Assembly (NCBI GenBank): GCA_947259495.1
Contig: CAMYLV010000009.1
Span: 28,073 to 92,072 of the forward strand
Origin: an uncultured Desulfobacterales bacterium
Lineage (GTDB): Bacteria > Desulfobacterota > Desulfobacteria > Desulfobacterales > JAHEIW01
Direction of reading: 5' to 3'
Length of the DNA: 64,000 bases
The position numbers were made by a program, and so were the translations under genes. Shown here piece after piece: positions 10,697 to 47,932 of this stretch. The notes under the pieces are model-generated. The model saw only the letters and a program-made list of their open reading frames with translations. It made no database searches and was not told the DNA's origin. Every line of letters starts with the position of its first letter. The first letter of the stretch is position 1.

Positions 10697-10805
10697 TTAT
10701 AGTGGTTGTCAAAAAAACGTTGCGTTAATCCAACGTTTTTTTCTACAACCACTTATACCCCAATTCCGTAATTGGGTGGTTTTTAACCGGGTGCTTTGCA
10801 CCCGG
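10697..10805 (-). repeat. Dispersed repeat, copy 1 (long form)
   Basis: Read on the minus strand: a CGGGTGCAAAGCACCCGG hairpin, then CACCCAATTACGGAATTGGG, then the core hairpin (GTGGTTGTAGAAAAAAACGT pairing with AACGTTTTTTTGACAACCAC around a short loop), ending in TATAA. It shares this layout with copy 3 at 15271. It points toward the minus-strand gene that starts at 10518, about 180 bp away. Confidence 0.85.
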
Positions 10806-11105
10806 ATATCTTAAGCGCCAGATGTCCCTCACAAAGCTTTGCCGCATCGATGGTGGGGTCACCGCATCAGCAGTATTGTGGACTCCGCAAAATCCGTCAA
10901 ATTACAGTCCTTAATGCTACCCGGCAACGTCAGGATTTTGGCAGGATTGAATAAAATAGATCCAAAACCGACGTGGCGCTGCGATTCCAAATAAGCGTGC
11001 ATCGGTTGGACGGCTTGCCTGCGGCGTCTTTGATGCTTAAGATTTCCTCATCATTCAATCAAACAAATTAACGGGTGCAGGCTGCGCCCGATTTCATTTA
11101 ACGTA

Positions 11106-11212
11106 TTTCTGCCGCTTTTCATATTAATGTTCCGAATGGCGGAATTGCGGCATAAATAGTTGTAGAAAAAGAACGTTTTTATATCGGAACGTTTTTTTGA
11201 CAACCACTATAG
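11106..11212 (+). repeat. Dispersed repeat, copy 2
   Basis: Begins CTGCCGCTTTTCATATTAAT, continues with GTTCCG and GGCGGAATTGCGGCATAA, then the core hairpin (GTTGTAGAAAAAGAACG with AACGTTTTTTTGACAACCAC) and ends ACTATAG. Only 13 bases separate it from the GTG start of the permease at 11226. Confidence 0.85.
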
Positions 11213-11225
11213 AAGGACTTTTACC

Positions 11226-13586
11226 GTGACGCCGGAAATTGTACTGGTTTTGTCGATCCTGGCAATAGCGATCGTGTTTTTAATCAGCGAATGGATCCCG
11301 ATGGAGGTCACCGCTTTGCTGGCACTGGGCGCTGTGGCCTTGACCGGTCTGGTCACGCCGGTTGAAGCGCTCGCGGGTTTCAGCAACCCGGCGGTTATTA
11401 CGGTGTGGGCGGTCTTTATTCTCAGCGGCGGTTTGACCCGAACGGGTGTTGCCAATGTCATTGGTCGCTTTGTCCTACGCCTGGCGGGCGACAGTCAAAC
11501 GGTCATGGTCATCGTTATCATGCTAACAGCCGGGGTGATGTCGGCTATCATGAACAATGTGGCGGTTGCGGCTCTGATGCTGCCGGTGGTCATGGATATT
11601 GCCCGCCACACCGGCAGTCCGCCCTCCCGGCTGTTGATGCCGCTGGCATATGGTTCGCTGTTGGGCGGTCTTACCACGCAGATCGGCACCCCCCCCAACA
11701 TTCTGGTCACCGACGCCCTGCGCGATGCAGGACTCAAGCCCTACACCTTTTTTGATTTTACGCCCATCGGCCTGATCATCATGTTTGGCGGCATCGCCGT
11801 TATGACCTTTATCGGCCGTTACCTGCTGCCGCAGCGAGACGTCGCCAAAGATTCATCCCGCGCCAAGGGGGTCGACTGGCAGTCTCAAGACGATCCGGGA
11901 GAACAGCTGTTTAAAATCCGTATCCCGGCAGCCTCGAATCTGATCAACAAAACCCTGGCAGACAGCCGCATGGGATCGATCCTGGGCTGGAATGTTATCG
12001 GTATTACGCGCCATGAGCGCACCATCCTGGCGCCCGGGCCTTCCGATATTTTGCAGGCCAATGACCTGTTGACCGTTGAGGGCCGCATTGAAAATTTAGA
12101 TGACCTGAAAAGCTGGCAGCAGTTGATTGTTGAAGACCAAAAAATCGATATAACCGAACCGTATTCGGATGAGATCAAAATCGGTGAAGTCCGCGTGCCG
12201 CCCGCCTCCCGGTTTGTGGGCAAAACCCTGAATGTCATGGAGTTTCGCACTCAATTTGGTGCCAATGTGCTGGCCATTTACCGCAACGGCAGCACCAAAC
12301 GCACCCATCTGTCGGATGATCCCCTGCAGCCCCAGGATCGGCTGCTGGTGGCCGGTCATCAGGAGCGCCTGGAGGCGCTCAGGGAAACATCCGGATTCGA
12401 TCAATTTCGCTTTGTTCCCCGCCAGGAACTGATCGATGCTTATCATCTACATGAACGCCTGATGGTCATGCGGGTACCGCCGGACTCGCCGCTGGCTGGA
12501 AAATCACTCAAACACAGCCGTCTGGGAGATGCGCTGGGCAGCCGGGTCCTGGGGATCATGCGGGGAAACGATCCCATCGTCATGCCGGAGCCCCAGGAAG
12601 TCCTGCAGGCTGACGATCGGCTGGCGGTTGAAGGTCGTCTGCGGGATTTTGAAGAATTGCAGGAACTTGAAAAACTGCAAATTGAACGGCGCACCCGCCC
12701 GGATATTCAATCACTGGTTTCGGGAAATTTCGGCGTGGTGGAGGCTATCCTTTCCCCCCAGACAACTCTGGTGGGAAAAACCTTGCGCCAGTTGAATTTC
12801 CGTGAAAAATACGGTTTGAATGTTCTGGCCATCTGGCGCCGGGGCAACGCATTTCGGTCCGATCTGCGCGATATGGACCTGCGCTTCGGCGATGCTATCC
12901 TGCTACTGGGCCCGCGCGACAAACTCCAGCTGCTGGGCCGCGAGCCGGATTTTGTGGTTTTGACCGAAATGGCCCAGGAGGAATTACGGCTGGAGAAAAT
13001 AAAAATCTCCGTTTTTATCATGGTGGCGGTTCTATTTCCGGTCATCATGGGATGGGTACCCATCTACATCGCTGCGGTGGTGGGAGCCGCTTTGATGGTC
13101 CTTTGCGGCTGCCTGACTATGGAAGAGGCCTACCGGCAAATCGAGTGGAAGGCCGTATTTTTAATCGCCGGCATGTTGCCCCTGGGAACGGCCCTGGATC
13201 AAACCGGCGCCGCCCGGATGATCGCCGAAACAGTTGTCGCGCTGGTGGGTCCTTTTGGTCCTACAGCAGTGATGTTCGGCCTGGTGGCCTTGACTTTTGC
13301 GGCCACCTGTTTTGTTCCCACCGCCGCCCTGATCGTTCTGATGGCGCCCATCGTATTGAGCACCGCGGCCAACACGGGGATGTCTCCTTATGCGCTGCTG
13401 ATGGCGGTGGCCATGGCCGCCTCAGCCAGTTTTATGACCCCTATATCGCACCCGGCCAATATTCTGGTGATGGGGCCTGGGGGATATCGTTTTCTGGATT
13501 ATATCAAGGTCGGCGGTCTGCTGACCCTGGTCATTTTGCTGATCATCGTTTTTGTGCTACCCTATTTCTGGCCCCTGGCCGGCTGA
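11226..13586 (+). CDS. SLC13-type anion permease with internal RCK_C (TrkA-C) domains
   Basis: A 786-residue inner-membrane transporter. The first 200 residues hold the N-terminal permease half, with GFSNPAVITVWAVFILSGGL and the GGLTTQIGTPPNILVT re-entrant motif. About four consecutive RCK_C (TrkA-C) domains follow in residues 215-590, each with the LxVEGR or LLVAGxxERL ending. The second permease half (residues 595-786) repeats the loop motif as SFMTPISHPANILVMG. This is the SLC13 permease architecture with cytoplasmic RCK_C domains, members of which move sulfate or other anions with Na+; the substrate here is not determined. A sulfate role would fit a sulfate reducer but is inference. The GTG start is supported by AGAAGGA eight bases upstream. 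Confidence 0.88.
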   Translation: MTPEIVLVLSILAIAIVFLISEWIPMEVTALLALGAVALTGLVTPVEALAGFSNPAVITVWAVFILSGGLTRTGVANVIGRFVLRLAGDSQTVMVIVIMLTAGVMSAIMNNVAVAALMLPVVMDIARHTGSPPSRLLMPLAYGSLLGGLTTQIGTPPNILVTDALRDAGLKPYTFFDFTPIGLIIMFGGIAVMTFIGRYLLPQRDVAKDSSRAKGVDWQSQDDPGEQLFKIRIPAASNLINKTLADSRMGSILGWNVIGITRHERTILAPGPSDILQANDLLTVEGRIENLDDLKSWQQLIVEDQKIDITEPYSDEIKIGEVRVPPASRFVGKTLNVMEFRTQFGANVLAIYRNGSTKRTHLSDDPLQPQDRLLVAGHQERLEALRETSGFDQFRFVPRQELIDAYHLHERLMVMRVPPDSPLAGKSLKHSRLGDALGSRVLGIMRGNDPIVMPEPQEVLQADDRLAVEGRLRDFEELQELEKLQIERRTRPDIQSLVSGNFGVVEAILSPQTTLVGKTLRQLNFREKYGLNVLAIWRRGNAFRSDLRDMDLRFGDAILLLGPRDKLQLLGREPDFVVLTEMAQEELRLEKIKISVFIMVAVLFPVIMGWVPIYIAAVVGAALMVLCGCLTMEEAYRQIEWKAVFLIAGMLPLGTALDQTGAARMIAETVVALVGPFGPTAVMFGLVALTFAATCFVPTAALIVLMAPIVLSTAANTGMSPYALLMAVAMAASASFMTPISHPANILVMGPGGYRFLDYIKVGGLLTLVILLIIVFVLPYFWPLAG

Positions 13587-13670
13587 CAGTGATCAATCAA
13601 TGCAATCATAACACGCCGACCCCTTGTCGACGGGTCGTGTTGAAGGTCATCGCGTAAAGGAGGTGGCACA

Positions 13671-14915
13671 ATGGGTTATCTGATCGGAGAGACTCTCGTA
13701 TATCTGATATTGGCGGCGATCATCGGAGCCGCCATTGCCTGGTTACTGCGGGGGGTGGGCTGTCGCTCCAGTGAAAATCAGCTCAAGACGGAGCTTGAAC
13801 AAACCCGCAGCGCACTGGAAACTGCCGAAACCAACGGGCGTTCGCTTGAAAGCGCGCTCAACGAGCTGCGTGCTGAGATGGACAGTGAAGCCCGCAAACT
13901 TGAGGCCAGAATCAGGGGACTGGAAATCGAAAACGGCAAGCTCCAAGAGACACTCAGCGAACTGGAACCCCTGCCGGGCAGAGTTCAGGAGTGCGATACC
14001 ATCATCGGCCACTGGGAAAGAGATTTTCAAAACCTTCAACAGCAGAGTGAGAGCGAAATTGCCAAACTGCAAGATAAAATTGCCGGGCTGGAACCGTTGC
14101 AGGCGGAGCTGGAAAACTCTCAAAAAGCATATACGAAACTCAGCACTGAACTTCAGGCGTTACAAACCGTTGCACATCAGGAAAATCGAAAAGCACTACA
14201 AATTTCAAATCTGCAAAATGAGATTAAAAAATTGCAGTCCGTGTCGGCAAAGATAAAAGAGCGCGATACAACCGTGGAGCACCTCCAAAGCCAGTTGCGC
14301 TCCCAAGCCAAAACCAAGGATGAAGAAATTGCACGCCTGCAAAAGGAGCTACAAACGCAGCACCGCAGCCGGCGGAAAAAAATTGACGCACTTGCTGAAA
14401 GGCTAACTAAAATCGAGCACCTGCCGCAAACCCTGGCCGAGCGCCAGCAGAAAATTACCCGTTTGCAGGAACAGCTGGGCAATGTGGAGCAACAAAAAAA
14501 CCAGGAGCTGAGCGTGCTCAAGGCTAAAATCAAAACGCTTGAGCCCTTTAAGGCGGCAGCTCAAGAACACAGCCGCGAGGTCGATCAGCTCAAACAACAG
14601 CTGGCAGCCGGCAAAAGCCGGGCAAAACCCGCTGCCGGTGCAACAAAATCAGGCAAGCGTCCCCGGAAAAAGCAATTGTACACACCGCCGAAAGAAAAAG
14701 ATGATCTCAAGCTCATCTATGGCATTGGTCCGGTAATGGAGCGGACCCTAAACAAACTGGGGGTGACTTCCTTTCAGCAGATAGCCAAATTTTCCCGCAA
14801 AGATATCGAACGCGTCGCCGGGGCGCTGCAATCCTTTCCAGATCGCATCATGCGCGATAACTGGGTCGGAGGTGCCAAAAAAGAATATCGCAAAAAATAC
14901 GGTAAAACGCTTTAG
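13671..14915 (+). CDS. Membrane-anchored coiled-coil protein with C-terminal helix-hairpin-helix
   Basis: The 414-residue protein has an N-terminal hydrophobic helix (about residues 5-25) and a very long heptad-rich coiled coil (about residues 33-320, rich in E, Q, K and L with repeated LQ and KL pairs). A basic linker (PAAGATKSGKRPRKKQ) leads to a C-terminal helix-hairpin-helix module starting LIYGIGPVMERTLNKLGVTS and continuing with IAKFSRKDIERVAGAL. This C-terminal type occurs in many bacterial proteins as a presumed nucleic-acid or protein-binding unit (LKGIGP...). The start has a near-perfect AAAGGAGGTGGCACA site. It lies 84 bp after the permease and could be co-transcribed with it. Role unknown; linking membrane to DNA is only a guess. 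Confidence 0.75.
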   Translation: MGYLIGETLVYLILAAIIGAAIAWLLRGVGCRSSENQLKTELEQTRSALETAETNGRSLESALNELRAEMDSEARKLEARIRGLEIENGKLQETLSELEPLPGRVQECDTIIGHWERDFQNLQQQSESEIAKLQDKIAGLEPLQAELENSQKAYTKLSTELQALQTVAHQENRKALQISNLQNEIKKLQSVSAKIKERDTTVEHLQSQLRSQAKTKDEEIARLQKELQTQHRSRRKKIDALAERLTKIEHLPQTLAERQQKITRLQEQLGNVEQQKNQELSVLKAKIKTLEPFKAAAQEHSREVDQLKQQLAAGKSRAKPAAGATKSGKRPRKKQLYTPPKEKDDLKLIYGIGPVMERTLNKLGVTSFQQIAKFSRKDIERVAGALQSFPDRIMRDNWVGGAKKEYRKKYGKTL

Positions 14916-15120
14916 CAGATTTGGATAATTAGGATGGGATGGGGGTGTCAGGGAAAAGATCACCTCGCGGAGTCAATGTCAATTAAGAAAATGTAAAGGG
15001 GGATATACTGACCCGAACCAGAGACAAAAGCAGAATTGGCATAGGACTCATGTATAAGGCGTCGGCTTCCTGTTATATACTTTCCTCCATCCGGAAAAGA
15101 TTATCCCCCCCTGAAGGCCA

Positions 15121-15195
15121 CATGCTGTTTGACATGGTTTTAAGCACCTTATCGGATGATAAGCGCTCGTGGCTTAAAACAGCCATGGCAGCATG
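15121..15195. repeat. Long imperfect inverted repeat, possible structured RNA
   Basis: Arms of about 27 bases (beginning CATGCTG..., with TTTTAAGCAC pairing GTGGCTTAAAA) pair with small mismatches. The inner loop itself contains CTTATC-GGAT-GATAAG, a perfect 6-bp stem. It does not have a T-run, so it is not an obvious terminator. It could be a small RNA, a cruciform or an element end. Confidence 0.55.
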
Positions 15196-15270
15196 GATTT
15201 CCCCTTAAGAAAAACCAGTGATTTGCCGATATTATTGCAGGCAAAAAGCCAGGGAGATTTTTCGATAATT

Positions 15271-15378
15271 CGGGTGCAAAGCACCCGGTTTGAAAACACC
15301 CAAATACGGAATTGGGGTATTAGTGGTTGTAGAAAAAAACGTTGGACTAACAGAACGTTTTTCTGACAAACACTATAA
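15271..15378 (+). repeat. Dispersed repeat, copy 3 (long form)
   Basis: Carries CGGGTGCAAAGCACCCGG, then CACCCAAATACGGAATTGGG, then the core hairpin ending TCTGACAAACACTATAA. Closely matches copy 1 over its whole length, in the opposite orientation. Ends 19 bases before the HTH gene start. Confidence 0.85.
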
Positions 15379-15397
15379 AGGACTGCAGGTGGAATTT

Positions 15398-15679
15398 ATG
15401 ATTAATGATCACATCGTACAGCGCAGAAGCGGTGAAGATCGGCGTAAAAAACACGACAGACGCAGCGGTTTTGACCGACGTACCGGGAGCTTTGCCAAAG
15501 GATTTGATGAAAATGGCCAGGAAAACGTCTATACCACCAAAGAGGCCTGTGAATATCTTAAGATTTCGCGCCCCACCTATCTCAAGTACATTGCGGAAGG
15601 CCGCCTCAGAGCCATTAAAGTCGGCCGCGGTTGGCGCACGCTCAAAACCGAACTGGACCGGTTTTTACGCGGAGACTAA
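15398..15679 (+). CDS. Small excisionase/MerR-type HTH protein
   Basis: A 93-residue protein starting MINDHIVQRRSGEDRR. The N-terminus is a run of charged GxDRR-type repeats (RRSGEDRR, DRRSGFDRRTG), a motif seen in signalling proteins of this group. Residues about 43-93 form a helix-turn-helix of the excisionase (HTH_17) kind: VYTTKEACEYLKISRPTYLK then YIAEGRLRAIKVGRGWR. The start at 15398 is chosen because the frame upstream is dispersed-repeat sequence and GCAGGTGG lies five bases before this ATG. It probably binds DNA; no integrase or phage gene is near, so a local regulator is more likely than a true excisionase. Confidence 0.75.
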   Translation: MINDHIVQRRSGEDRRKKHDRRSGFDRRTGSFAKGFDENGQENVYTTKEACEYLKISRPTYLKYIAEGRLRAIKVGRGWRTLKTELDRFLRGD

Positions 15680-15690
15680 ATCTTTTCTAC

Positions 15691-16110
15691 TTAATTCATA
15701 AAGCCGCCGCTACCGCCGGAAACTTTACTTTCGCTTACTTTTCGAACGATACCGCTTTTTTCAAAATAGACATATAAATTGCAATTTTTTTTATCAATTG
15801 AAACCCGACCCGCACCCAGCCGGTCTTTACTGAATGACTTGAAAGCAGACCCGCCGCTGCTGCCGCTGGGCGAGGTGACTTTATAAGTATACTTCCACAG
15901 TTCGCCTTTATTTAGCGCACCTTCAACCTTGTCGGGATCGCCGATGAGTTGCTTCACATCTTCTTTGGTCGACTTGCCCTGCTGAATCTGACCAATAATC
16001 TTGGGATCGCACACATCGCTGTTACCGCTAGCTGAACGGGCAAAATCGGGCAAAACTATTGCCATTGTAAATAGACAAACCGTCAGGGCGGTTATATATT
16101 TACCATTCAT
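15691..16110 (-). CDS. Exported BamE/SmpA-OmlA-like small protein
   Basis: The 139-residue protein starts with a signal peptide (MNGKYITALTVCLFTMAIVLPDFARSAS) behind a strong AAAGGAGGATAAAAT site. The mature part (CDPKIIGQIQQGKSTKEDVKQLIGDPDKVEG) has the KSTKEDVxxLxGxPxxV pattern of the BamE (SmpA/OmlA) fold, which in true BamE supports outer-membrane protein insertion. There is no lipobox and a Gly/Ser-rich tail is present, so this is a BamE-like domain protein rather than BamE itself. It faces the HTH gene tail to tail, with 11 bases between the two. Confidence 0.65.
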   Translation of the reverse strand: MNGKYITALTVCLFTMAIVLPDFARSASGNSDVCDPKIIGQIQQGKSTKEDVKQLIGDPDKVEGALNKGELWKYTYKVTSPSGSSGGSAFKSFSKDRLGAGRVSIDKKNCNLYVYFEKSGIVRKVSESKVSGGSGGFMN

Positions 16111-16293
16111 ATTTTATCCTCCTTTCCACAAACGGCAAAGGAAACTGAGAACCAGATGATGATTTTTGTGGTTAAAGATAATTCCCTAATTTTGATTGAC
16201 AACCCCGAGCTTGAAATAAGCGTTGACAGATGACATCAAACATATTGACTTTGACAGCCATACCGGAGACATAAAAGCCGCAGGAGACAAAAA

Positions 16294-17202
16294 TTGAAAC
16301 CCATAAAATTGGCAACCATGGATTGCCAACAGGTCTGTGAAGAGATCGGTGATTTTGTCATCGAAATGGTGCTGACGACCGCTTCCAGCGGGTGTGTGAT
16401 CGGATTGTCGGGTGGCGTCGATTCGAGCACGGCGGCAGCGCTGATCAAAACCGGTTTTGATCGCCATAATGCCAAACTTGCAAAAGATCAGCCGGCGCAT
16501 GAGTTGGTGGGCTATATCTTGCCGTCAAGCATCAATGCGACCCGGGACGAAACCGACGCCGCTTCGGTGGCCGAACATCTGGGGTTGCGTTATGAAATTC
16601 ACAACATCGAAGGCCTGCTGGAACCTTTCAAGTTAACCAATCCGGAAGCATTTGATGATAAATTCCATAAAGGCAATATGATCTCCAGGATCCGGGCCAA
16701 CGTTTTGTCAACCAAAGCAGCGACAGAAAATAAAATTTTAGCCGGCACCGGCAACCGCGATGAAGATTTCGGCATCGGTTATTACACCCTTTTCGGGGAC
16801 GGGGCCGTGCACCTCAGCCCCATCGCCGGTTTACCCAAACGGCTTGTACGTGAAATGGCCGCCTTCCTGGGGCTGGACAAACAGATCATCCACCGCGAAC
16901 CGACTGCCGGTTTGGAACCGGGCCAGAGCGATTTTAAAGACCTGGGATATGATTATGATGTGGTTGAAATGATCACCGAGGGCCTTGAGCAGGGGTTTTC
17001 CAAAGAGGTGCTGATCAAACACACGCAAATTGCCCCGCTGGTCAAGCGACAAATCAAGCAATACCAATCGCTTTACGGCGATGAAAAGTTGCCTTCCGTG
17101 GTAGCCGTAGTGGAAGATGTGATCAAGCGGCATCAGCAGGCCAAAGGCAAAATGAAAATTATCCATCCGCCCAAACCCAAAATCACATTGACATACGATT
17201 GA
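16294..17202 (+). CDS. nadE: NAD synthetase, ammonia-dependent type
   Basis: Makes NAD+ from deamido-NAD+ with ATP and ammonia in the cytosol. The 302-residue protein has the PP-loop ATPase motif LSGGVDSSTAA (residues 38-48), the TKAATENKILAGTGNRDEDFG segment of the family, and YYTLFGDGAVHLSPIAGLPK. There is no N-terminal nitrilase domain, so free ammonia is the likely amide source. The TTG at 16294 is preferred over ATG 16318 because AGGAGA lies six bases before it. It stands alone between a divergent BamE-like gene and dispersed-repeat copy 4. Confidence 0.9.
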   Translation: MKPIKLATMDCQQVCEEIGDFVIEMVLTTASSGCVIGLSGGVDSSTAAALIKTGFDRHNAKLAKDQPAHELVGYILPSSINATRDETDAASVAEHLGLRYEIHNIEGLLEPFKLTNPEAFDDKFHKGNMISRIRANVLSTKAATENKILAGTGNRDEDFGIGYYTLFGDGAVHLSPIAGLPKRLVREMAAFLGLDKQIIHREPTAGLEPGQSDFKDLGYDYDVVEMITEGLEQGFSKEVLIKHTQIAPLVKRQIKQYQSLYGDEKLPSVVAVVEDVIKRHQQAKGKMKIIHPPKPKITLTYD

Positions 17203-17227
17203 TCAATTTTTGCTTTTCTCTAAATAA

Positions 17228-17332
17228 TTTATACCGCTTTTCATAATAGTGTCCCGATTCACGGAATTGCGGCATAAGGGGTTGTAGAAAAAACGTTTGA
17301 ATATCGGAACGTTTTTTTGACAACCACTATAA
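17228..17332 (+). repeat. Dispersed repeat, copy 4
   Basis: Starts TTTATACCGCTTTTCATAAT, then GTGTCCCG and CACGGAATTGCGGCATAA, then the core hairpin (GGTTGTAGAAAAAACGTTTG with AACGTTTTTTTGACAACCAC), ending ACTATAAC. Lies 33 bases before the start at 17366. Confidence 0.88.
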
Positions 17333-17365
17333 CACCCAAAAAAGACCATAGATGAGGGGAGAAAA

Positions 17366-17848
17366 ATGTCTGAAGATGCCTTGCGCAAGCAATTATATGG
17401 ATCATTTAAAAACCGCGCCATGATGTACTGGCACATTTTTGAAGCACTGAAGATAGAAGTCGGCGAACAAAAAGCCACCGAGATCATAAACCGCGGGATA
17501 TACAACCGCGGCCTGGAAATCGGCAAGCCGTTCAAAAAATTCGCGCCCGCTGACCTGCACGGATTAAAACATGCCTTTTTCGATTTTATTCCCGATGGGG
17601 GCAAAATGTTTGATCCCGAAGTGTTGAAATGTGATGAGAGCGGCCTGGTCATTAAGATGCGCCGCTGCCCCCTGAAAGAGGTCTGGCAGAATGCGGGGTT
17701 AAGGGATAGCGACATTGCCAAGATGTGTGATATGGCGGGCATTGTTGATAAAGGCACCTTCGAAGGTGCCGGGTTTGGCTTTTCAGCTGAAACCTGGGCG
17801 CCGGGACAGCAAGGGTGCTGCCTGCTAAAAATTAGGCCTGGAAAATAA
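17366..17848 (+). CDS. L-2-amino-thiazoline-4-carboxylate hydrolase family protein
   Basis: The 160-residue cytosolic protein matches the ATC hydrolase family by its C-terminal half: CPLKEVWQNAGLRDSDIAKM, then CDMAGIVDKGTFEGAGFGFS and a GCCLLKIRPG ending, with conserved Cys and acidic residues. Characterised ATC hydrolases open the thiazoline ring on the way to cysteine; many homologues in anaerobes have unknown substrates, so the reaction here is not assured. The start has a GGGGAGAAAA site. It is a single-gene unit that begins right after repeat copy 4. Confidence 0.75.
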   Translation: MSEDALRKQLYGSFKNRAMMYWHIFEALKIEVGEQKATEIINRGIYNRGLEIGKPFKKFAPADLHGLKHAFFDFIPDGGKMFDPEVLKCDESGLVIKMRRCPLKEVWQNAGLRDSDIAKMCDMAGIVDKGTFEGAGFGFSAETWAPGQQGCCLLKIRPGK

Positions 17849-18049
17849 AGCATCCAGACGGCTTTTCATGATCATGACGGAAAAAAAAGCTAAAGTTAAC
17901 CGTAATATGGCAGATAATAATATCGGGGGATTTGTGACTTTCTGGCGCGGTAATGCCGTCCGCAAAATCCAAATTGCCCCCTTATCAGCGTACAGTCCAG
18001 CATTCGGACAATCGATCCGTTCATAATTGCCCGGCCTTGGGGGGCTTAG

Positions 18050-18415
18050 ATGCGTAAGAGTCTTTACCGTTTGGTCTTGATGTTGGTCATTGTCAGTTTC
18101 ACCTGCCTGATTGGCGGCTGTAATTCAATTCCGGTTCCGGAAGAAAAAAAATCTTATATCGGAACATGGGAAGGTGTCGGCTTTCACCTGACCATAAGCG
18201 ACAATGGCGGCGTTAATTACCGGCGGGTAAATGGAAAACGTTCAACCAAGGTCTCCGGTCCCCTGAAAAATTTTGCGGGGGATGATTTCATTGTCGGTGT
18301 GCTGTTTTTCACTACAACCTTTGAGGTGCATAAGCCGCCATACCTGGATGGCGACGACTGGTTCATGGTGGTCGACGGCGTTGAATTGAGAAAAGTTGCC
18401 GGACCGATTACCTGA
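18050..18415 (+). CDS. Small lipoprotein, unknown function
   Basis: A 121-residue protein with a lipoprotein signal ending LIGGC (about residue 25), preceded by a GGGGGG ribosome-binding site. The mature part (YIGTWEGVGFHLTISDNGGV) looks like a small beta-barrel or lipocalin-like fold (GTWEG opening, alternating hydrophobic strands). I do not recognise a named family. It is followed by a second short lipoprotein gene separated by repeat copy 5. Confidence 0.6.
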   Translation: MRKSLYRLVLMLVIVSFTCLIGGCNSIPVPEEKKSYIGTWEGVGFHLTISDNGGVNYRRVNGKRSTKVSGPLKNFAGDDFIVGVLFFTTTFEVHKPPYLDGDDWFMVVDGVELRKVAGPIT

Positions 18416-18450
18416 ACCTTTTTAATAAGCGCTTCACCCTCCACTTTTAG

Positions 18451-18504
18451 AGATTGTAAAAAAAACATTGTGGTATTCAAACGTTTTTTTTACAACCACT
18501 ATAA
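18451..18504 (+). repeat. Dispersed repeat, copy 5 (core hairpin only)
   Basis: Only the core hairpin is present: GATTGTAAAAAAAACATTGT pairing with AAACGTTTTTTTTACAACCA, ending ACTATAA. The upstream module seen in other copies is missing. Ends 31 bases before the lipoprotein start at 18536. Confidence 0.8.
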
Positions 18505-18535
18505 ACGCCTTCGAAAATAGTAAAGGAGTTGAAGC

Positions 18536-19000: not shown

Positions 19001-19011
19001 TGAATCCTCAT

Positions 19012-21135: not shown

Positions 21136-21272
21136 CAGGTTCCAAGGTTTAAGGTTCAGGGTTTTATTTTTGAGTATTATGTGCTTCGTTGCCCAGAAGG
21201 AGGATAGATTCGCTGAGTGGCAGTAAGCAACCAGTGACTGGAACCTCTGAACCTTTGAACCCTGAACCCTTT
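21136..21272. repeat. Intergenic GAACCT-type inverted repeat
   Basis: AGGTTCCAAGGTTTAAGGTT near 21138 pairs imperfectly with AACCTTTGAACCCTGAACCC near 21250, around a loop of about 80 bases. A related pair of arms occurs at 56068-56235. Located between gyrB and thyA. Confidence 0.7.
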
Positions 21273-35079: not shown

Positions 35080-35288
35080 TTTATACCGTTTTACGTAATA
35101 ATGTTCCGTGCTAACGGCATCAAGTCTACTTTCGGCTAAATCAAGGAAATGGTTTAGGGTTTTTTCACCCCTAAGACCTTTATATTTCATAAAAAGCCGT
35201 TCGGGCCCGTCAGGAAAGTAACATATCCGCTGTAACAAATTTTACAGAATTGAGAATTTCGGAACATTATTATGAAAAGCGGTATAAA
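35080..35288. mobile_element. 209-bp element with terminal inverted repeats (MITE-like)
   Basis: The left end TTTATACCGTTTTACGTAAT continuing AATGTTCCG (35080-35108) is an imperfect inverted copy of the right end CGGAACATTATTATGAAAAG continuing CGGTATAAA (35260-35288). The same end sequence opens dispersed-repeat copies 4, 6, 7 and 8. The interior has no transposase, so mobility would need a partner in trans. Located between the DUF4870 gene and pdxT. Confidence 0.7.
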
Positions 35289-36876: not shown

Positions 36877-37176
36877 TGTAAACACCTCCCTGAATTTTTA
36901 AATTTTATAATTTTCTAATTGCCGCCATGTTAGCGGTCATGGTAATAAAAAACAGATACAGATAATTATAAAAATAGGCATAACAGTTTTAGCGCCTCTT
37001 TAGTGTGTTGGAATTAATATATCGATTATTATTAGTCGTTTATATAATAAATAGAGGTTTTATACTGCTTTTCATAATAATATTCCGGATTACGGAATGG
37101 GGGGTATAAGTGGTTGTAGAAAAAAAAGTTGGCGTAACGGGATGTTTTTTTGACAATCACTATAACGGAGAAGAGT
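36877..37176. promoter_or_regulatory. Divergent pdxST/pdxR intergenic region
   Basis: 300 bases that must hold both promoters and the regulator's operator. The pdxS-proximal half is AT-rich (CGATTATTATTAGTCG, GTTTATATAATAAATAG). The regulator-proximal half is filled by repeat copy 6 (37058-37164). I do not see a clear pair of direct operator repeats outside the repeat copy. Confidence 0.5.
37058..37164 (+). repeat. Dispersed repeat, copy 6
   Basis: Begins TTTTATACTGCTTTTCATAA, continues ATTCCGGATTACGGAATGGG then GTATAA, then the core hairpin (GTGGTTGTAGAAAAAAAAGT, right arm GATGTTTTTTTGACAATCAC), ending TATAAC. Only 12 bases lie between it and the ATG of the regulator at 37177. Confidence 0.88.
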
Positions 37177-39402: not shown

Positions 39403-39602
39403 TGCTGTGCGTTCATCATATCGAATAAATGCGTGCAGCGGTAGGTTTATTTAACATATTTTGCAAGCCCTCTGCTTTTTAGACGTTTTGGGGCGACATT
39501 TTTGTCGACATGTTCTATTATCGTGTTTTAGTGACGGCGTCGGTCGAATCACAAATAGCGGGTTACAAACAACTTGCCAATCATAGCACATAGTGTATGG
39601 TT

Positions 39603-39938: not shown

Positions 39939-40124
39939 GCGCCCCTGCCGGTTGCAAACCTGTCGCATCATTTTATTGCCCCAGTAGCCTCTAAAATCTT
40001 AATTCAATACCGGCTTTTTGATGCCAGCATTGCGCTCATATACGTGATGATTTAATAATTTTACGCGTCCGTTCAATCGACCAAATGATTTCAAGGCGGG
40101 ATGTCGCCGTCGTCATTTTAGGTT

Positions 40125-40772
40125 TTAGTTAAATGTTAATGTCTCAACGATCTCTTCCAACTGGCTGTGGCCAGATTCGTCCTGAAAGGTCAGCGCCATC
40201 AATAGGGCATATCCCTTCATGATGGTCGCATATTGTATCTGTCGGATAACGACACCCGGCCCCATGGTGATTTTGGTTTCCATGATGTCAAACGAGACCC
40301 CATCAATGGTCTTTTCGTATATCTCTTGCGGATAAGAAACCTTCATGCGGCTCATTTTCAACAGTTTTTTCGCATGGTAATGGTAGTCGCTGCCTCTTTT
40401 AATGCCCGGTGCATGCGTTACTTTTTCTGCAATCAGCATGATCCCCGGATTGGTGGAAACAGCCGCCCCGGGTGGATGTTCATAGGCGGTTAATAAATTT
40501 ATGCTTTGCAAATCCGCGGCTTTGATGGCAGCCTTTAAGTTTTTATTATCTCCGGCGACAATTTCACCCCCGCGTTTCATTATTTCCAGGCGCGCTTCCT
40601 GTTCCAGCACATGCCAGGAATCCGGAATGCTGAGCATCAGATTAAAAAACGTATTGGAATAGCTGCCGGATTCAAACGTTCCGAAATCAATTGCTTTTTT
40701 ATCACTGCAACTGATAATCAGCGCGCTTGTCAGTATGCATGCGGCCATCATCACATTTCGCGCACTATTCAT
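40125..40772 (-). CDS. Lipoprotein, unknown function
   Basis: A protein of about 215 residues. N-terminus MNSARNVMMAACILTSALII with lipobox IISC. The mature part (NTFFNLMLSIPDSWHVLEQE) has beta strands alternating with helices and a C-terminal YALLMALTFQDESGHSQLEE segment. This pattern (a lipid-anchored domain beginning with a short 'SIPDSW' strand) is seen in exported proteins of unknown function. The start at 40772 was picked to put the lipobox at a normal distance; ATG 40802 is also open. Confidence 0.6.
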   Translation of the reverse strand: MNSARNVMMAACILTSALIISCSDKKAIDFGTFESGSYSNTFFNLMLSIPDSWHVLEQEARLEIMKRGGEIVAGDNKNLKAAIKAADLQSINLLTAYEHPPGAAVSTNPGIMLIAEKVTHAPGIKRGSDYHYHAKKLLKMSRMKVSYPQEIYEKTIDGVSFDIMETKITMGPGVVIRQIQYATIMKGYALLMALTFQDESGHSQLEEIVETLTFN

Positions 40773-41015
40773 GCGGCGGCTGCCCCCATAATTTTTTGTC
40801 ATTCTAGTTTCGATACTAAAAAAAGCGTTCGATAAGTTAAATATAGTATATCGGAAATCGTGTCGCGTCGCAATTTTTTCCGCTTAAAATTTACAAAAAG
40901 TACGCCTAACATAGCCAGGCAATGAAATATTAATCCGCCCCCGGGGTGCGGCGTGCTAAGATTGCTGACCGGCACACCAGTGCTTAACCTTTTCTAACCA
41001 TAATAGGAGGTCATA

Positions 41016-41426
41016 ATGGAAGTTTTAAACTGGAAAGAATGCGAGGACGTTCAGATAAAAAAATTTCCCTATCGGGGTCAGCAACTCGATGTTAAGGGCA
41101 TCAGCATTCGCTGGCTGTCAAAGCATGGCGATGACGGCAGCGGCTATCCCGAGTACGGTCTGCGGTTTTTTACGGCCCGGCCCGGTGGTGAGATCCCCAT
41201 CCACAATCATTTTTATCACCAGACCATGTATATCTTAAGCGGCCGGTTCGAATGCTACCAGTTTGATTCCCAAACCGATGAAATCGTCCAGAAAACGGTT
41301 TGCGGTGCCGGTGATGTCATTTTTGTTCCCAGCCTGGAACCCCATGGCATGAAAAACATCAGTGACACCGAAACGGCCACTTTCCTGTGCTGCATCTGCA
41401 ATGTTTACGACCATGAGGGTGAATAA
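41016..41426 (+). CDS. Cupin-domain protein
   Basis: A 136-residue single-domain cupin. The metal-site motif is visible as IPIHNHFYHQTMYILSGRFE and the second motif as GAGDVIFVPSLEPHGMKN. Such proteins bind a metal and a small ligand (often a sugar or organic acid) or act as small isomerases; the substrate is unknown. Start ATG 41016 follows AATAGGAGGTCATA. It is convergent with the glycogen branching enzyme gene, with a 53-base gap. Confidence 0.8.
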   Translation: MEVLNWKECEDVQIKKFPYRGQQLDVKGISIRWLSKHGDDGSGYPEYGLRFFTARPGGEIPIHNHFYHQTMYILSGRFECYQFDSQTDEIVQKTVCGAGDVIFVPSLEPHGMKNISDTETATFLCCICNVYDHEGE

Positions 41427-41479
41427 GCGCAAGGCGCCTTTGCGGATTGTAAGGGGTGTTGAATGCGACAACGTATCGA

Positions 41480-43528
41480 TCAGATAAAATGCTGTAAAAC
41501 AATTCCAGTTCGGCTGGGTAAATAAAGGCTTAAAAAATAATTTTCTCCATCGGTGCCCTTTTTACGCAGCGTCATATGCTCCTGGCCGGATATCAGGCGG
41601 CTATGACCGCCGTATTGCGGGTCATCGCTGGAAAGCAGCATACGGTAGGTGCCCGGCGGGGCATCAAAGCGATAGTCGGGATAGGACTGTTGGGGGTGAA
41701 AGTTCAAGGCAAACAACAGAGCGGCCCGCTTAAATATGATGATCTTGTTGTCGGAGTGCTCGTAAAGCAGATGCAGATCGTCGCCATCCAACAGATGGCG
41801 GGATTTGGCCAGCCCAATCATATCACGGTCAAAGCAAGCCAGAAATTGATACTTTAAATGTGGATCGTCGACCAGGTGCCACTGCCGGCGGGCGTAATGA
41901 TATGACCAGTTGTTGCCTTCCCGCGGAAAATCAATCCATTCCGGATGCCCGAATTCATTGCCCATAAAATTCAAATAACCGTTGCCGGCAGTGCCCAGTG
42001 TGACCAGTCGGATCATTTTCTGCAGGGCCATTCCACGATCCACTTTCATATTTTCAGAATCCACGTGCATGTGGTCATACATGTCGGCACCGATTAATCG
42101 GAAAATGATGGATTGGTCCCCCACCAGGGCCTGGTCGTGGGATTCGGCATAGCTGATGGTTTTTTCATCGCTGCGCCGATTGGTGAGCTCATGCCACAGG
42201 TGTTTGATGGGCCAGTGCTCATCAGATACTTCTTTAACCAATTTGATCCAGAAGTCCGGTACCCCCATGGCAAAGCGAAAATCAAATCCGAAGCCACCGT
42301 TTTCAGCCGCAGCCGCCAGTTGCGGTATCCCGCTGACATCTTCGGCTATCGAGATGGCATCCGGGCGGACCTCGTGGATGACTTCGTTGGCCAGCGCCAG
42401 ATAGACCAGCGCTTCTTCGTCCACCTGTTCATTGAAATAATCGTCGTAAGATGTAAAGGCCTTATTCAGGCCGTGGTGCAAATAAAGCATGCTGGTGATG
42501 CCGTCAAAGCGAAAGCCGTCCAGCTGATATTCATCCAGCCAGAAGCGACAGTTGGAAAGCAGAAAATGCAACACCTGATGCTTGCCGTAATCAAAGCAAC
42601 GCGAATCCCACAGCTCGTGGCGTCCGCGCGGACCTGCATGAAAATACTGATACAGGGTGCCGTCAAAGCGGCTGAGGCCTTCAACTTCATTGGAGACGGC
42701 ATGAGAATGGATCAAATCAATCATAACGGCCAGACCGGACGCGTGGGCTGCGTCGATCAGGGCTTTAAAATCTTCGGGGGTGCCAAATCGCGAGGATGCC
42801 GCAAAAAAGCTCGACACCTGGTAACCGAAGGACCCGTAATAGGGATGCTCCGGAATGGCCATGATCTGCAGCGTGTTGTATCCGGTGGCTGCCACCCGGG
42901 GCAGAATATTTTCAGTAAATTCCGAATACGATCCGATTTTAGCCGCTTCCTGGGCCATACCGATGTGAACTTCATATATCAGGGGTGCATCGGAAGCGCG
43001 CCGAAAATCCTTACACTGCCACTGATAGGGTGAATCCGGCCGCCAGACCTGGGCGTTGAATATGAGCGATTGGGGGTCCTGAACTACGCGCCGGGCGTAA
43101 GCGGGGATACGATCCCCTTCACCGCCGGGCCAGTGTATGCGCAAGCGGTACAAAGTGCCGTGCTGAAGCTTTTCGGCTGCCAGGCGGATTTCCCAGATCC
43201 CGTCATCGCGGGCCTTGAGGGCAAATTCCGCTTTTTCCTGCCAGCCGGACATATCTCCGATCAAAAATATTTCCGCGGCGTTGGGGGCCCATTCGCGAAA
43301 AACCCATTGATCGTCCTCAAAATGCAGACCAAAGTATTCATGTCCGGAAGCAAAGTCCGCCAGGGATGCGTGTCCCCGGGTCAGCCGCTGTCGGGTTTGA
43401 GCAATTTTCGACAGGCGCCGGGAAATGATGTTTTGATAGGGCGCTAAATACGGGTCGCCTTTCATCAGACGCTGGAGCGCCAGATTGATCTGATCTTGCT
43501 GATTACCATCTGGTTTATGTGAGGTCAT
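41480..43528 (-). CDS. glgB: 1,4-alpha-glucan branching enzyme (GH13)
   Basis: Transfers alpha-1,4 oligoglucan segments to alpha-1,6 positions in glycogen. The roughly 682-residue protein has a carbohydrate-binding N-terminal module (residues about 60-160, FREWAPNAAEIFLIGDMSGW) and the GH13 barrel: DLIHSHAVSNEVEG, DGFRFDGITSML with nucleophile Asp342, the acid Glu in SIAEDVSGIP, and SYAESHDQALVGD. FMGNEFGHPEWIDFPREGNN is also typical. The sequence is closer to the eukaryote-like (GH13_8) branch. ATG 43528 is used; a GTG 18 bases upstream lies inside repeat copy 7. Last gene of the minus-strand glycogen cluster, behind glgA. Confidence 0.95.
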   Translation of the reverse strand: MTSHKPDGNQQDQINLALQRLMKGDPYLAPYQNIISRRLSKIAQTRQRLTRGHASLADFASGHEYFGLHFEDDQWVFREWAPNAAEIFLIGDMSGWQEKAEFALKARDDGIWEIRLAAEKLQHGTLYRLRIHWPGGEGDRIPAYARRVVQDPQSLIFNAQVWRPDSPYQWQCKDFRRASDAPLIYEVHIGMAQEAAKIGSYSEFTENILPRVAATGYNTLQIMAIPEHPYYGSFGYQVSSFFAASSRFGTPEDFKALIDAAHASGLAVMIDLIHSHAVSNEVEGLSRFDGTLYQYFHAGPRGRHELWDSRCFDYGKHQVLHFLLSNCRFWLDEYQLDGFRFDGITSMLYLHHGLNKAFTSYDDYFNEQVDEEALVYLALANEVIHEVRPDAISIAEDVSGIPQLAAAAENGGFGFDFRFAMGVPDFWIKLVKEVSDEHWPIKHLWHELTNRRSDEKTISYAESHDQALVGDQSIIFRLIGADMYDHMHVDSENMKVDRGMALQKMIRLVTLGTAGNGYLNFMGNEFGHPEWIDFPREGNNWSYHYARRQWHLVDDPHLKYQFLACFDRDMIGLAKSRHLLDGDDLHLLYEHSDNKIIIFKRAALLFALNFHPQQSYPDYRFDAPPGTYRMLLSSDDPQYGGHSRLISGQEHMTLRKKGTDGENYFLSLYLPSRTGIVLQHFI

Positions 43529-43529
43529 A

Positions 43530-43604
43530 TTTATACCGCTCTCCACAATAGTGTTCCGATATATGGAAGTGGGGCATGAGTGGTTGTGGAAAAAAACGTT
43601 TGAA
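43530..43604 (+). repeat. Dispersed repeat, copy 7 (truncated)
   Basis: Begins TTTATACCGCTCTCCACAAT, then GTGTTCCGATATATGGAAGT, then GTGGTTGTGGAAAAAAACGT; the right half of the hairpin is missing and the sequence runs straight into the glgA stop at 43610. It fills the glgA-glgB gap but faces the opposite way to both genes. Confidence 0.8.
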
Positions 43605-43609
43605 TTATT

Positions 43610-45172
43610 TTACGCTACCTGGTTGAAATTTGTTTTGCAAGCGTCCGGATTGGGCATATTTTCTACGATCAGCGGACGCTCGAGCATCCGTTCGTATAGT
43701 GCAATGTATTGACGCGCGGTATTGGCGTGGGTAAAGGTTTCGGCACTTTCTTTCATAATTCGCCTGATCTGCTGATTTTTGATGGTTTTCGGCAGATTGT
43801 AAAAATTCATGGCCTGCTCGATGGCCCAAAAAAGGCCGTTGGAGTCGAAGGTTTTAAAAAGAAAACCATTTCCCTGGTCCCCGATCGTGTCCAGATCAAC
43901 GATGGTGTCGTGGATCCCGCCGGTGTCGTGAGCAACCGGCAGGGCGCCGTAAATGGGCGCGATCATCTGGGGCAGTCCGCAGGGCTCAAAACTTGAGGGC
44001 ATCAATATGAAATCGGCTGCGCCGTAAGCCAGATGTTCCAAACGGAAATCAAAATCGCAAATCGCGACACGTTTTTCCAGACCGTGAAAATTGATAATAT
44101 CCCTGAAGACCGCCTGATAATCCCCGTTGGCGACAAAGATGATTTGCAGATTTTGTTTCCAATAGGTTGAAAGGATCTTGTAAAAAATGTCGGCCAGCAA
44201 ATGGCAGCCCTTTTGAATCGGATCCAGGCGCGAAGGCCAAAAAAACACCGGGGCCGCATCATCCTGGATGAGTCCCAATTTTTTTTGAAGAAAGGCTTTG
44301 TTGGCTTTTTTGCCGGATACAAAATTTTTGGGGCTGTAATTTTGTACCAATTCCCTGTCTGTTACGGGATTAAAGGAAGGGTCGGGCGCATTGAGTATGC
44401 CCGCGGCGCAATCGGCCGCTACTTTATTTGCCAGTTCCCGTTTCAGGGGGGGATAGACAAAATTATGGCGACCGTTGATAACTTCCGCTAAAAAGTTGGG
44501 ACTAACCACATTGACAAAGTGGGCGGCAAATACGCCGCTGGTCAGCAGGTCCACCGGATTGGTCTCCCGGGCCGCTTCATAATGATCGGCCATGTTTTCA
44601 AAATATAAATTTTGCCAGAAATAGGCGGCATCGATACCGCGGTCTTCGATATAGGCCAGGGTGGTTTTGACCGTATGCACATTATGAATGGTGAAAAGAC
44701 AGGGGATGCCTATCTGCCTGGCCATGGCCGGAACCAGGCCGGTCATCCAATCGTTGCAGTGGATCAGGTCGGGCTGTACCCGGGGAACAATGTTGTTGAT
44801 GACCTCCCGCTGAAACGCTAACGCCAGCTTGATGTTTTCCTCACCATAAGCAGAATAAACGCGGTTCACATAATAAAAAGCGCGATCCTCGGCCAGGTGG
44901 ATGCGGTCATCGGGCATTTTTCTGCGAATCGTACGAAATTCCTTTCTGAGAACCGGTGCCAGGCCGTCGCTGAAAATAGACCGATAGTCCGGGATGGCCA
45001 CGTGCACATCAGCGCCCTGTTCAAATAAGGCCGTCACCAGGGCTGCCGACACATCGGCCAACCCGCCGGCTTTGGCCGTAAAAAAGGAGGCCAGGCCGCC
45101 CATGCGGTCCGGCAGGTAGGTTACCTCGGGGGTCACAACCAGCACCCGCGGGTTGCAGGAAACGTCATTCAT
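43610..45172 (-). CDS. glgA: Glycogen synthase (GT5)
   Basis: Elongates glycogen from ADP- or UDP-glucose. The 520-residue GT-B protein has the GT5 N-terminal donor loop as TAKAGGLADVSAALVTALFE (KxGGLADV, about residue 35), a VQPDLIHCNDWMTGLVPAMA segment, an FFWPSRLDPIQKGCHLL segment and the C-terminal FILMPSSFEPCGLPQMIAPI. The nucleotide donor cannot be told from sequence; UGPase is encoded nearby, ADP-glucose pyrophosphorylase is not seen. It lies 35 bases behind the phosphorylase and 81 bases ahead of glgB, with the gap to glgB filled by a repeat. Confidence 0.93.
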   Translation of the reverse strand: MNDVSCNPRVLVVTPEVTYLPDRMGGLASFFTAKAGGLADVSAALVTALFEQGADVHVAIPDYRSIFSDGLAPVLRKEFRTIRRKMPDDRIHLAEDRAFYYVNRVYSAYGEENIKLALAFQREVINNIVPRVQPDLIHCNDWMTGLVPAMARQIGIPCLFTIHNVHTVKTTLAYIEDRGIDAAYFWQNLYFENMADHYEAARETNPVDLLTSGVFAAHFVNVVSPNFLAEVINGRHNFVYPPLKRELANKVAADCAAGILNAPDPSFNPVTDRELVQNYSPKNFVSGKKANKAFLQKKLGLIQDDAAPVFFWPSRLDPIQKGCHLLADIFYKILSTYWKQNLQIIFVANGDYQAVFRDIINFHGLEKRVAICDFDFRLEHLAYGAADFILMPSSFEPCGLPQMIAPIYGALPVAHDTGGIHDTIVDLDTIGDQGNGFLFKTFDSNGLFWAIEQAMNFYNLPKTIKNQQIRRIMKESAETFTHANTARQYIALYERMLERPLIVENMPNPDACKTNFNQVA

Positions 45173-45207
45173 GCGGTTTATGCTTTCTTAACGATTAACA
45201 TCGTCGC

Positions 45208-47710
45208 TTAGGCCCATGTCAGCAGCCCGGGCGTCGATTTTACGCGCCCATCACCCCGGGGGGTGACGCGAACTGTAAAACCAAAGCGACCCGAACGCTG
45301 GCAATTTAAAGAGCAGCTGTAAAGGAACTGTCCGTTACCACGGTCTTCCAGAACAAGCATTTGTTCCGATTTGCTGGCATCCAGATCCTCTAAAGATTTC
45401 ATCTGGCCGTAGTAAAGCTCGACATCGACCTCATCGGGATTGAGTTCTGCCAGATTGATTTCCGATGTGATGTCGAATTTTTCACCCACCCGGCAGGGCC
45501 CTTGAGCGTGTCTCACCGGCGGCTTGACTTCAATGTTTTTCCAGAGCGAACGCAGCCGGCTTGCCTGAGCGGTCAAATTTTTCGCTTCCTCGGTCTGCTT
45601 GGCAAGCAGGGTCTCATAACGTTTGGCAGCGGGAACGTAGAAACGCTTTTCATACTCGGCGACCATGCGAATGCTGCAATACGTTTCCATCGCCATTTTC
45701 ATCGAGGCCTTCATCATTTTTAACCAGTTGCCGGGGAGATCACCGTTTTTGCGATCATAGAAACAGGGGATCACTTCATTTTCCATAACATTATACAGCG
45801 CCTGGCTTTCAACGGCATCCTGATAGCCGCGATCCTCGTATTCCTCCCCGTTTCCGATGCGCCAGCCTCTTTCCTCCGTATAGCCTTCACACCACCATCC
45901 GTCGAGAATACTGACATTCAACACCCCGTTAATGGCCGCTTTCATGCCGGACGTACCGCAGGCCTCAAGGGGTCGCCGGGGTGTGTTCAGCCATACATCG
46001 GCGCCCTGCAGCAGATGACGGGCCAGATGCATATCGTAATCTTCAAGAAAAACAATTCGATCACGCAGCTCCGGTTTGCTGGCAAACTGAAAAAGCTTTT
46101 TGATGAGGTCTTTACCTTCATTGTCTTTCGGATGGGCTTTGCCGGCAAAGACAAACTGGACCGGGTATTTTTGCGAGTTAACGATCGCTTCCAGGCGCTG
46201 GGGATCCTGAAATAACAAATAAGCACGCTTATAGGTCGCAAAACGTCTGGCAAAAGCGATGGTAAGCACATTCGGGTCCAATACCGATTGGAGGGTCTCA
46301 ATCACATTTCGCGGTGCGTTGCGGCGCGCATATTGTTTGACAAGTTGTTCCCGGCAGGTACGCACCAGACGCGAGCGGTTCAATTCATGACTGCGCCACA
46401 GCTCCTCGTCGTAAATATCATCGATATGCTTGATATTTTCAGGTTTGCGAGAACCCATGTACCAGTCCGACCCGAGATAGCGCCCGAAAAGATTGGTAAA
46501 TTCCTGAGAAATAAACGATGATATATGACGGCCAGACATGCGACCACATGCGCCGGGCCACAGACCCGTGTAACCGGCTGACACCATTGCAATAGGATGC
46601 CAGATGCAATCCCAGGATGAACATCGACAACGGCGCTTCGGAAACGGATCCAACAGGTTGCCCCCAGGATAAAATTTCCGATGCCGACGTTCCCAATTTT
46701 TTCTCCAGCGGTTTTAAATACGGCAGAACATGCTCGGCCGGAAATTCATCATGCCCAGCGGCTACCGGCGTATGAGTGGTAAAGACGGTTGTGCGCGGCA
46801 CGATCTCAAGTGCGGTTTTAAGGTCAACATTTTGATTGGCCATTATTTGCGCCAGGCGTTCCAGGCTGGCAAAAGCAGAATGCCCCTCGTTCATATGCAG
46901 GACGTTAACCTGGATGTTTATAGCTGCTAGGGCGCGCATTCCGCCGATTCCCAGCAACACCTCCTGGGCCAGACGTGTTTTCTGATCACCGGCGTAAAGC
47001 CTTGATGTGATTTCGCGATACGGCTGGGGGTTTTCAAGAATATTGGTATCCAGCAGGTAAAGTGGAATGCGCCCGATCATCATTTTCCAGACAACAGCAT
47101 GCATAGGGCCCTGCGGTCCGGCAACCGCGATTCGCAATTCATTACCCGCATCATCTTGCACCCGCTCAGCCGGAAGATCATAGAGGTCGGTTTCCGGATA
47201 GGCTTCCTGCTGCCAGCCATCATGATTGAGGTACTGGCGAAAATATCCGTGGCGATACATGAGCCCCACACCGGTTAGCGGAAGATTCAGATTTGATGCC
47301 GCTTTCAAATGATCACCGGCCAAAATGCCCAGGCCACCGGCAAACAGCGGCAGGCTTTCATGAATGCCGAACTCCATGGAGAAGTAGGCAATCGTCTGCC
47401 CGGGCCCCAAAACCGTTTCAGCGCGGTCGGTCGAGTCCAGGACCCGACTTTGAAATTGTTTTTGGACTTCTTTTAAGTGGGCAAGATAACCCTTATCCTT
47501 TCCCAGTTTTTCGAAGCGGCTTTGTGAAATCTTCGATAAGAAAAAAATCGGGTTGCGGCCGGCCTCAACCCAAAGCGGCGGATCCATACGACGAAAAAGT
47601 TCGATGGCATCTTTATTCCAGCTCCACCACATATTGCGGGAGAGGATTTCGAGAAATTGAAGGGGTTCGGGTATACTTGGGATCACGTGAAATGTTTGAT
47701 AATTTTTCAT
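45208..47710 (-). pseudogene. glgP: Alpha-glucan phosphorylase (GT35), broken by a short deletion and frameshift
   Basis: Two overlapping reading frames make one phosphorylase. The first part (47710 down to about 46530) reads MWWSWNKDAIELFRRMDPPL, YFSMEFGIHESLPLFAGGLG, VLHMNEGHSAFASLERLAQ and VSRLHGSVARRMWSHVWP. The second part, in another frame from about 46530 down to 45208, reads HISSFISQEFTNLFGRYLGS, FAGKAHPKDNEGKDLI and SGMKAAINGVLNVSILDGWW. Between HVWP and HISSF the roughly 16 residues that normally include the conserved HVTNG active-site segment are missing. So it is more than a one-base slip: about 50 bases are gone and the frame changes. PLP binding needs residues of the second part, so the enzyme is probably inactive. 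It would release glucose 1-phosphate from glycogen. Confidence 0.75.
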
Positions 47711-47895
47711 ACAATCGAAATCCTTAATTTTTTATGCTGCCGGCATCGCCGTCCTGGGTTCACCCCATGCGAGTAACCCCTGCAGCCGAGTTACAGAAGA
47801 ATAAAGCCTAATGTGAGAAAAATCAATATATCCCTAATAATTTAGGAATTCAGGAATTCAGAGATCCTGGAATTAAAATCGGCGATGAACATCAA

Positions 47896-47932
47896 TTTAT
47901 ACCGCTTTTCATATTAATGTTCCGAGTCACCG
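47896..47932 (+). repeat. Dispersed repeat, copy 8 (left module only)
   Basis: TTTATACCGCTTTTCATATT followed by AATGTTCCGAGTCACCG, matching the opening of copies 2 and 4; the core hairpin is absent. Between the phosphorylase and the debranching enzyme genes. Confidence 0.7.

Follow-up and report, generated by a model that had tools for sequence, protein, structure and literature searches.

The REP, BIME and REPIN repeats are short intergenic palindromes that occur in hundreds of copies and are associated with RAYT transposases. The nearest precedent for the family that we describe here is RUP of pneumococcus, which is reported to be 107 bp long, AT-rich, present in ~110 copies, inserted at TA and over-represented between convergent genes, with ends that resemble those of IS630-Spn1, its proposed mover (PMC3049150, PMC2229807). 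The Correia elements of Neisseria (NEMIS, CREE) are described with size classes of 104 to 108 and 153 to 157 bp, TATA ends, a TATAG[CT]GG start and hairpin transcripts; many copies lie 5′ of genes, and promoter and RNase III effects have been reported (PMC2649163). A sulfur bacterium is also reported to have TATA-ended MITEs with no known parent (PMC4853749). Here, we describe a dispersed repeat of an uncultured Desulfobacterales bacterium that is very probably a non-autonomous MITE of ~103 bp. Its ends match the ends of an IS630-family element found intact in the order, and a transposase of that type, for which searches of the repeat's own genome gave no match, likely mobilized it in trans. 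This kind of element is already known, as RUP and Correia illustrate; it is the family itself, with its two-hairpin build, that is new, as set apart by the published descriptions of those two. Searches of open PMC text turned up no title on such a family in Desulfobacterales.

Within the window, by which we mean the whole stretch of 64,000 nucleotides analyzed, the core arms (four and seven matches at three mismatches or fewer) and the left module (seven matches) far exceeded the 0.00, 0.00 and 0.03 matches expected from shuffles. Across the genome that contains it (G000; 4.44 Mb, 69 contigs), the left module was found at 232 places and the core hairpin at 115, as against no occurrence of either reversed control pattern, confirming the dispersed family proposed by the first-pass annotation. 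A profile built from the family's own copies and run over a sample of 1.50 Mb, about a third of the genome (the window together with six entire contigs), gave 166 hits. Discarding the weaker of overlapping hits, for the most part the palindrome read on its opposite strand, left 119 non-overlapping matches; 69 of these are full length, from which we extrapolate ~200 full copies in the whole genome. The complete unit measures ~103 to 105 bp from TATACCGC to CACTATA and has the layout TATACCGCTTTTCATAATAATGTTCCG ... CGGAACGTTTTTTTGACAACCACTATA, with the ends mostly 101 to 104 bp apart. Inside each end lies a partial inverted copy of that end, which produces a left hairpin and a core hairpin. A long form of 228 bp (e.g., C2:9536-9763) carries additional DNA in the left-hairpin loop, which in the two long-form copies of the window holds the hairpin CGGGTGCAAAGCACCCGG; both forms are short and have no transposase gene of their own. 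The left flank reads TTTA before TACC and the right flank TATA followed mostly by A, and a search of 196 position pairs for a target duplication longer than TA found no consistent left-right correlation (best z 2.9). Because nearest-neighbor identity among the 69 full copies has a median of 0.92 and a maximum of 0.98, a recent burst is not evident. A search for known structured RNAs gave no Rfam match at gathering score within the window.

Three copies in the window are full length, all on the plus strand: 11108-11211, with a left end mutated at its tip, 17230-17331 and 37061-37164. Taking the last base of CACTATA as the right end, these stop 14 nt before GTG 11226, 34 nt before ATG 17366 and 12 nt before ATG 37177, respectively. 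Also on the plus strand, a left-truncated long-form copy (15271-15377) ends 20 nt before ATG 15398, and a core hairpin alone (18446-18503), which, being a palindrome, the profile search assigned to the minus strand, lies 32 nt before ATG 18536. The five distances to same-direction starts agree to within one base with those first noted. The other plus-strand pieces are the left two thirds of a copy from which the right end is absent (43532-43605), the left end of a long-form copy (47898-47937) and a solitary left end (35080-35110), with a second solitary left end in the opposite orientation on the minus strand (35259-35288). These assignments correct the original copy list, with three full-length copies and the others truncated or partial. 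A minus-strand copy (10698-10809), a left-truncated long form made up of the CGGGTGCAAAGCACCCGG hairpin, inner left arm, core hairpin and right end, had been said to face its gene as well; this point is weak because the called ORF at 10180-10518 is 179 nt away and has no Pfam match. The solitary left ends at 35080-35288 flank ~150 bp, part of which is host DNA conserved in the congeners G001 and G002.

In the descriptions of RUP, the likeness to the present family extends to size, AT-richness, IS630-like ends and, probably, insertion at TA (PMC3049150, PMC2229807). On the same descriptions, RUP lives beside its IS630, whereas no parent was found in the genome studied here; RUP ends pair over 9 contiguous bp, whereas ours are imperfect terminal inverted repeats of 27 bp (20 of 27 positions identical in the consensus, counted by eye), each with a partial inverted copy of itself on its inner side; and RUP favors convergent gaps, whereas a plain count places 11 of 67 full copies here between convergent genes. 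Correia elements, as described, share the two main size classes (~103 and 228 bp here), the TATA ends and the TATAG[CT]GG start, and when the patterns given in PMC2649163 are compared by eye, agreement with the Correia repeat TATAG[CT]GGATTAA... stops after roughly TATAG[CT]GG, about eight bases. As with REP and REPIN sequences, these are short intergenic palindromes in hundreds of copies in a genome with RAYT genes, but their ends are those of an IS630 element rather than of a RAYT, and none of the three RAYT loci of the genome has matching ends within 1.5 kb. These loci (L066, L067 and L068) are RAYT-like Y1 transposase genes, none with the present repeat nearby.

The first-pass annotation had likened the TA-flanked hairpin to a minimal MITE of the IS630/Tc1 type and had proposed a search for an IS630-type transposase with matching ends, and relatives of the bacterium supplied one. 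In G186, an intact element of 1,200 bp (L294) has a 341-residue transposase gene bounded on both sides by ends that fit the end pattern with zero mismatches; its product scores 213.7 bits against the NCBIfam IS630 model (cut-off 100) and 127.7 bits against Pfam DDE_3 (cut-off 28.6), and all three transposases tested reach 214 to 217 bits with the IS630 model at the same cut-off of 100. Intact relatives in G021 (L287) and G245 (L293) have one matching end each, the other having been looked for at both loci and not found. Overall, L294, L289 and L290 at both ends and L287 and L293 at one end match the pattern at zero to two mismatches. The stop codon of the transposase falls inside the right end of the element, and the one matching end in G021 adjoins the stop codon of its gene. 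The right end of the MITE still reads IGTFF-stop, as compared with IGTLF-stop at the ends of the intact genes of L287 and L294. The congener G003 holds copies of 471 and 631 bp that are internally deleted, with transposase remnants between two matching ends, and these look like a step from insertion sequence to MITE. A search of seven genomes for DDE_3, an IS630-type endonuclease family, gave matches in G003, G021 and G030; the DDE_3 genes of G030, a genome rich in copies, have no such ends. The family looks orphaned in the genome of the window, as neither a DDE_3 match nor a match to the IS630 transposase found with these ends (protein search, E 1e-30) was obtained there.

The distribution of the family is patchy. 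Eleven of 58 genomes searched, its own included, have a match, among them all four members of the genus represented. In the wider order, a DNA match is present in 38 of 389 genomes and a near-full-length copy in 18 (count of listed rows), many of the remainder matching just the last ~29 bases, i.e., one end. A protein search at E 1e-30 found the transposase in only 9 of the 389 genomes, as against the 38 with a DNA match, and the intact parent in G186 belongs to another family of the same order; both facts count against the IS630 explanation. Of the 18 genomes with a near-full-length copy, G003 and G021 alone have the transposase (hypergeometric p = 0.06); in most genomes, then, the family occurs without its parent. 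Six genomes have both transposase and DNA match, of which only G003, G021 and G378 are independent co-occurrences, because the match in G186, G198 and G245 is the insertion sequence's own end. Among the matches listed for public genome contigs (at least 80), titles name Desulfobacterales, Desulfobacteria, Desulfobacteraceae, Desulfobacula and Deltaproteobacteria, with one isolate given as Proteobacteria; paired ends in these listed matches also lie 145 to 434 bp apart, and no complete autonomous copy was found in the contig stretches of the 80. Two pattern scans of viral contigs gave no match.

Comparison with congeners indicates how the copies came to lie where they are. Synteny with the window is seen in G001:C2 and G002:C99, and the nine window copies (the pair at 35080/35288 taken as one) are missing at the matching places in both, as judged by a scan for ends and by flank alignments in which divergence blurs the junction for the copies at 10698, 15271, 18446, 43532 and 47898. 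Clear empty sites are CCATTTAAGC in G002, corresponding to C13:178127 (TATA at either end when filled), and CTTTA/ACGGAG in G001, corresponding to the window copy at 37061. A TTTA in the empty site corresponds to TATA on both sides of the inserted copy, which is compatible with duplication and with none. The congeners also have ribosome-binding sites free of any copy, next to 11108 in G001 and next to 37061 in both G001 and G002. At the place matching 15271-15377, G002 has a copy in the opposite orientation (G002:C99:36518-36617), apparently an independent insertion. We suggest that an IS630-type transposase inserted the element at TA in AT-rich, TTTA-like stretches between genes and was later lost from this genome. 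The cluster of copies before start codons in the window would then be due to AT-rich leaders tolerating insertion rather than to selection for leader function. In copies that are transcribed, the two hairpins might be expected to affect mRNA folding, by analogy with what is reported for Correia elements.

The possibility that the copies are instead kept as regulatory leaders, in which a transcribed double hairpin upstream of the ribosome-binding site stabilizes the mRNA or tunes translation and selection acts on place and orientation, deserves consideration given the five window copies that lie 12 to 34 nt before starts in gene orientation. Placement was assessed for 85 copies (69 full, 16 partial), after 34 of the 119 matches that had no right end or were short stubs had been set aside, and two of the 85 have no called neighbor on one side, which leaves 83 in the upstream counts. 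Inner members of nested pairs were kept, their nearest neighbor being another copy; the core hairpin at 18446-18503 was scored as minus, and the orientation first assigned to it would add one sense-upstream copy in the window. Genes were called with a home-made caller, and start positions may be off. None of the 85 copies overlaps a called gene, in a sample of which called genes cover 81%; this is not proof that no gene has ever been cut, because the caller would report the two halves of an interrupted gene separately. With the window included, the leader explanation gains some ground: of 83 copies, 13 lie sense-upstream within 40 bp versus 6.9 expected (p = 0.026), 17 versus 9.9 within 60 bp (p = 0.020) and 22 versus 15.4 within 100 bp (p = 0.05). 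The window had been picked for its upstream pattern, however, and was left out of a second test, in which the 77 remaining copies showed 9 versus 6.3 expected within 40 bp (p = 0.18), 13 versus 9.1 within 60 bp (p = 0.12) and 18 versus 14.1 within 100 bp (p = 0.16). This excess agrees in direction with the first-pass annotation from 40 to 100 bp and is never significant, and within 20 bp (2 versus 3.4) even the direction differs. The same picture was obtained outside the window with TTTA sites as the null. Orientation gave no significant bias outside the window either (13 sense versus 8 antisense within 60 bp, p = 0.38), although antisense-upstream copies within 20 bp were absent there where 3.4 were expected (p = 0.03, one of several tests), as retention in gene orientation would predict.

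Folding and conservation bear on the same question. Six window copies fold well (z -2.8 to -7.7), as a leader should, but the 15 sense-upstream copies fold no better than the 52 others (core median -18.8 versus -21.2 kcal/mol, p = 0.07) and have no better profile scores, and the congeners keep their ribosome-binding sites beside 11108 and 37061 without a copy. The arms of the hairpins do co-vary. In an alignment of 88 of 111 copies (86 distinct; 18 in rejoined contigs without a locus reference and 5 of irregular length were left out), 91.6% of cells retain the proposed pairing, compared with 89.8% in shuffles and 42 to 52% when the pairing is slid. Double changes occupy 44 cells versus 12.8 in shuffles, mainly at columns 51-101 and 62-92, and the covariation score of 0.087 exceeds that of all 500 shuffles, with cell counts inflated by shared descent. 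Compensatory changes are thus present in the arms, although they are spread over 5 pairs versus 4.9 in shuffles, i.e., no more than by chance. Such covariation counts in favor of leaders and fits what an inverted repeat under any symmetry constraint would give, with no leader function demanded. Support for leaders comes mainly from the window, since the sense-upstream excess outside it is not significant and upstream copies are neither better folded nor better scored, and we consider retention as leaders improbable. The upstream placement and orientation first seen here thus do not extend to a significant genome-wide bias in the sample outside the window, and the case is a warning of how a striking local pattern can lack significance in the rest of a sample.

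A promoter reading outward from the right end was considered and dropped. Although 55 of 69 full copies contain TTGACA, a -10 element with a 5-of-6 match at 16 to 18 nt is absent from all 13 copies that lie sense-upstream within 100 bp. The mean -10 score is 2.9 in these 13 and 2.4 in copies that are not upstream (p = 0.057). The mechanism described for Correia promoters, with the -35 in the element and the -10 completed by the flank, accordingly finds no support in this family.

Duplication of a TA target is a hallmark of IS630, and nested copies bear on it here. In three independent cases, one copy has inserted in the core-hairpin loop of another, with junctions CGTTT/GAATAT (C6:13749), CGTTG/GAATAA (C4:51493) and CGTTTG/AATACC (a compound unit). 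Once TACC..CTATA is removed, the loop reads as in other copies in all three, with zero duplicated bases, which runs against the IS630 explanation. The outer TA is also lopsided: among 69 copies it deviates in 20 at the left end and in 5 at the right (p = 0.0016), which again runs against that explanation. Either the right-hand TA is carried by the element, or the left TA of a duplication was changed each time to the exact host base, which is less likely. The compound MITE, ~205 bp long and consisting of one copy nested in the loop of another, occurs at five places in the sample (C6:105929, C4:79780, C4:107844, C4:121887 and C4:173535, that at 121887 without the outer right part). It probably moved as a unit, because the five places show different short flanks. 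A tentative and rather doubtful extension is that the element invades its own hairpin loop without TA duplication and that the ~205-bp nested product is mobile, so that a MITE grows into a two-unit MITE after its parent is gone. If such self-invasion does occur, IS630-type ends could be joined at non-TA sites, with the right-hand TA carried by the element. The nested insertions and the compound unit together raise the testable question of how IS630/Tc1-type ends choose and join their targets.

A Y1 (HUH) transposase of the IS200/IS605-like or RAYT type, acting on single-stranded DNA without target duplication as for REPINs or palindrome-associated elements, would account for the three nested insertions, the left-right asymmetry of the flanking TA and the hairpins at both ends in a genome with three RAYT-like genes, but we find it very improbable as the mover, as none of the Y1 loci examined bore the ends (neither the genome's own three, within 1.5 kb, nor 27 from relatives, apart from matches with 4 to 5 mismatches that are at chance level), copy-rich G021 has a single Y1 match, and the ends belong to the gene of an IS630 parent that was found.

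With an IS630-type origin preferred on these grounds, a large, patchily distributed repeat of Desulfobacterales-type genomes is tied to a concrete parent transposon, and hundreds of hairpins that could be mistaken for regulatory RNAs can therefore be annotated as likely transposon remnants. The same genomes hold further repeats. A second dispersed repeat of ~230 bp lies at window 3443-3697, L040:4011-4243 and L040:14950-15186 and has numerous matches in G001 and G002, on both strands; the window pair has AATTTGAAACGCTCATTTTAGG in common. A third stretch, L040:15446-15656, is matched many times in the congeners. Finally, degenerate short repeats of the GAACCTCTGAACC type are present at 21241-21267 and 56197-56246 of the window.
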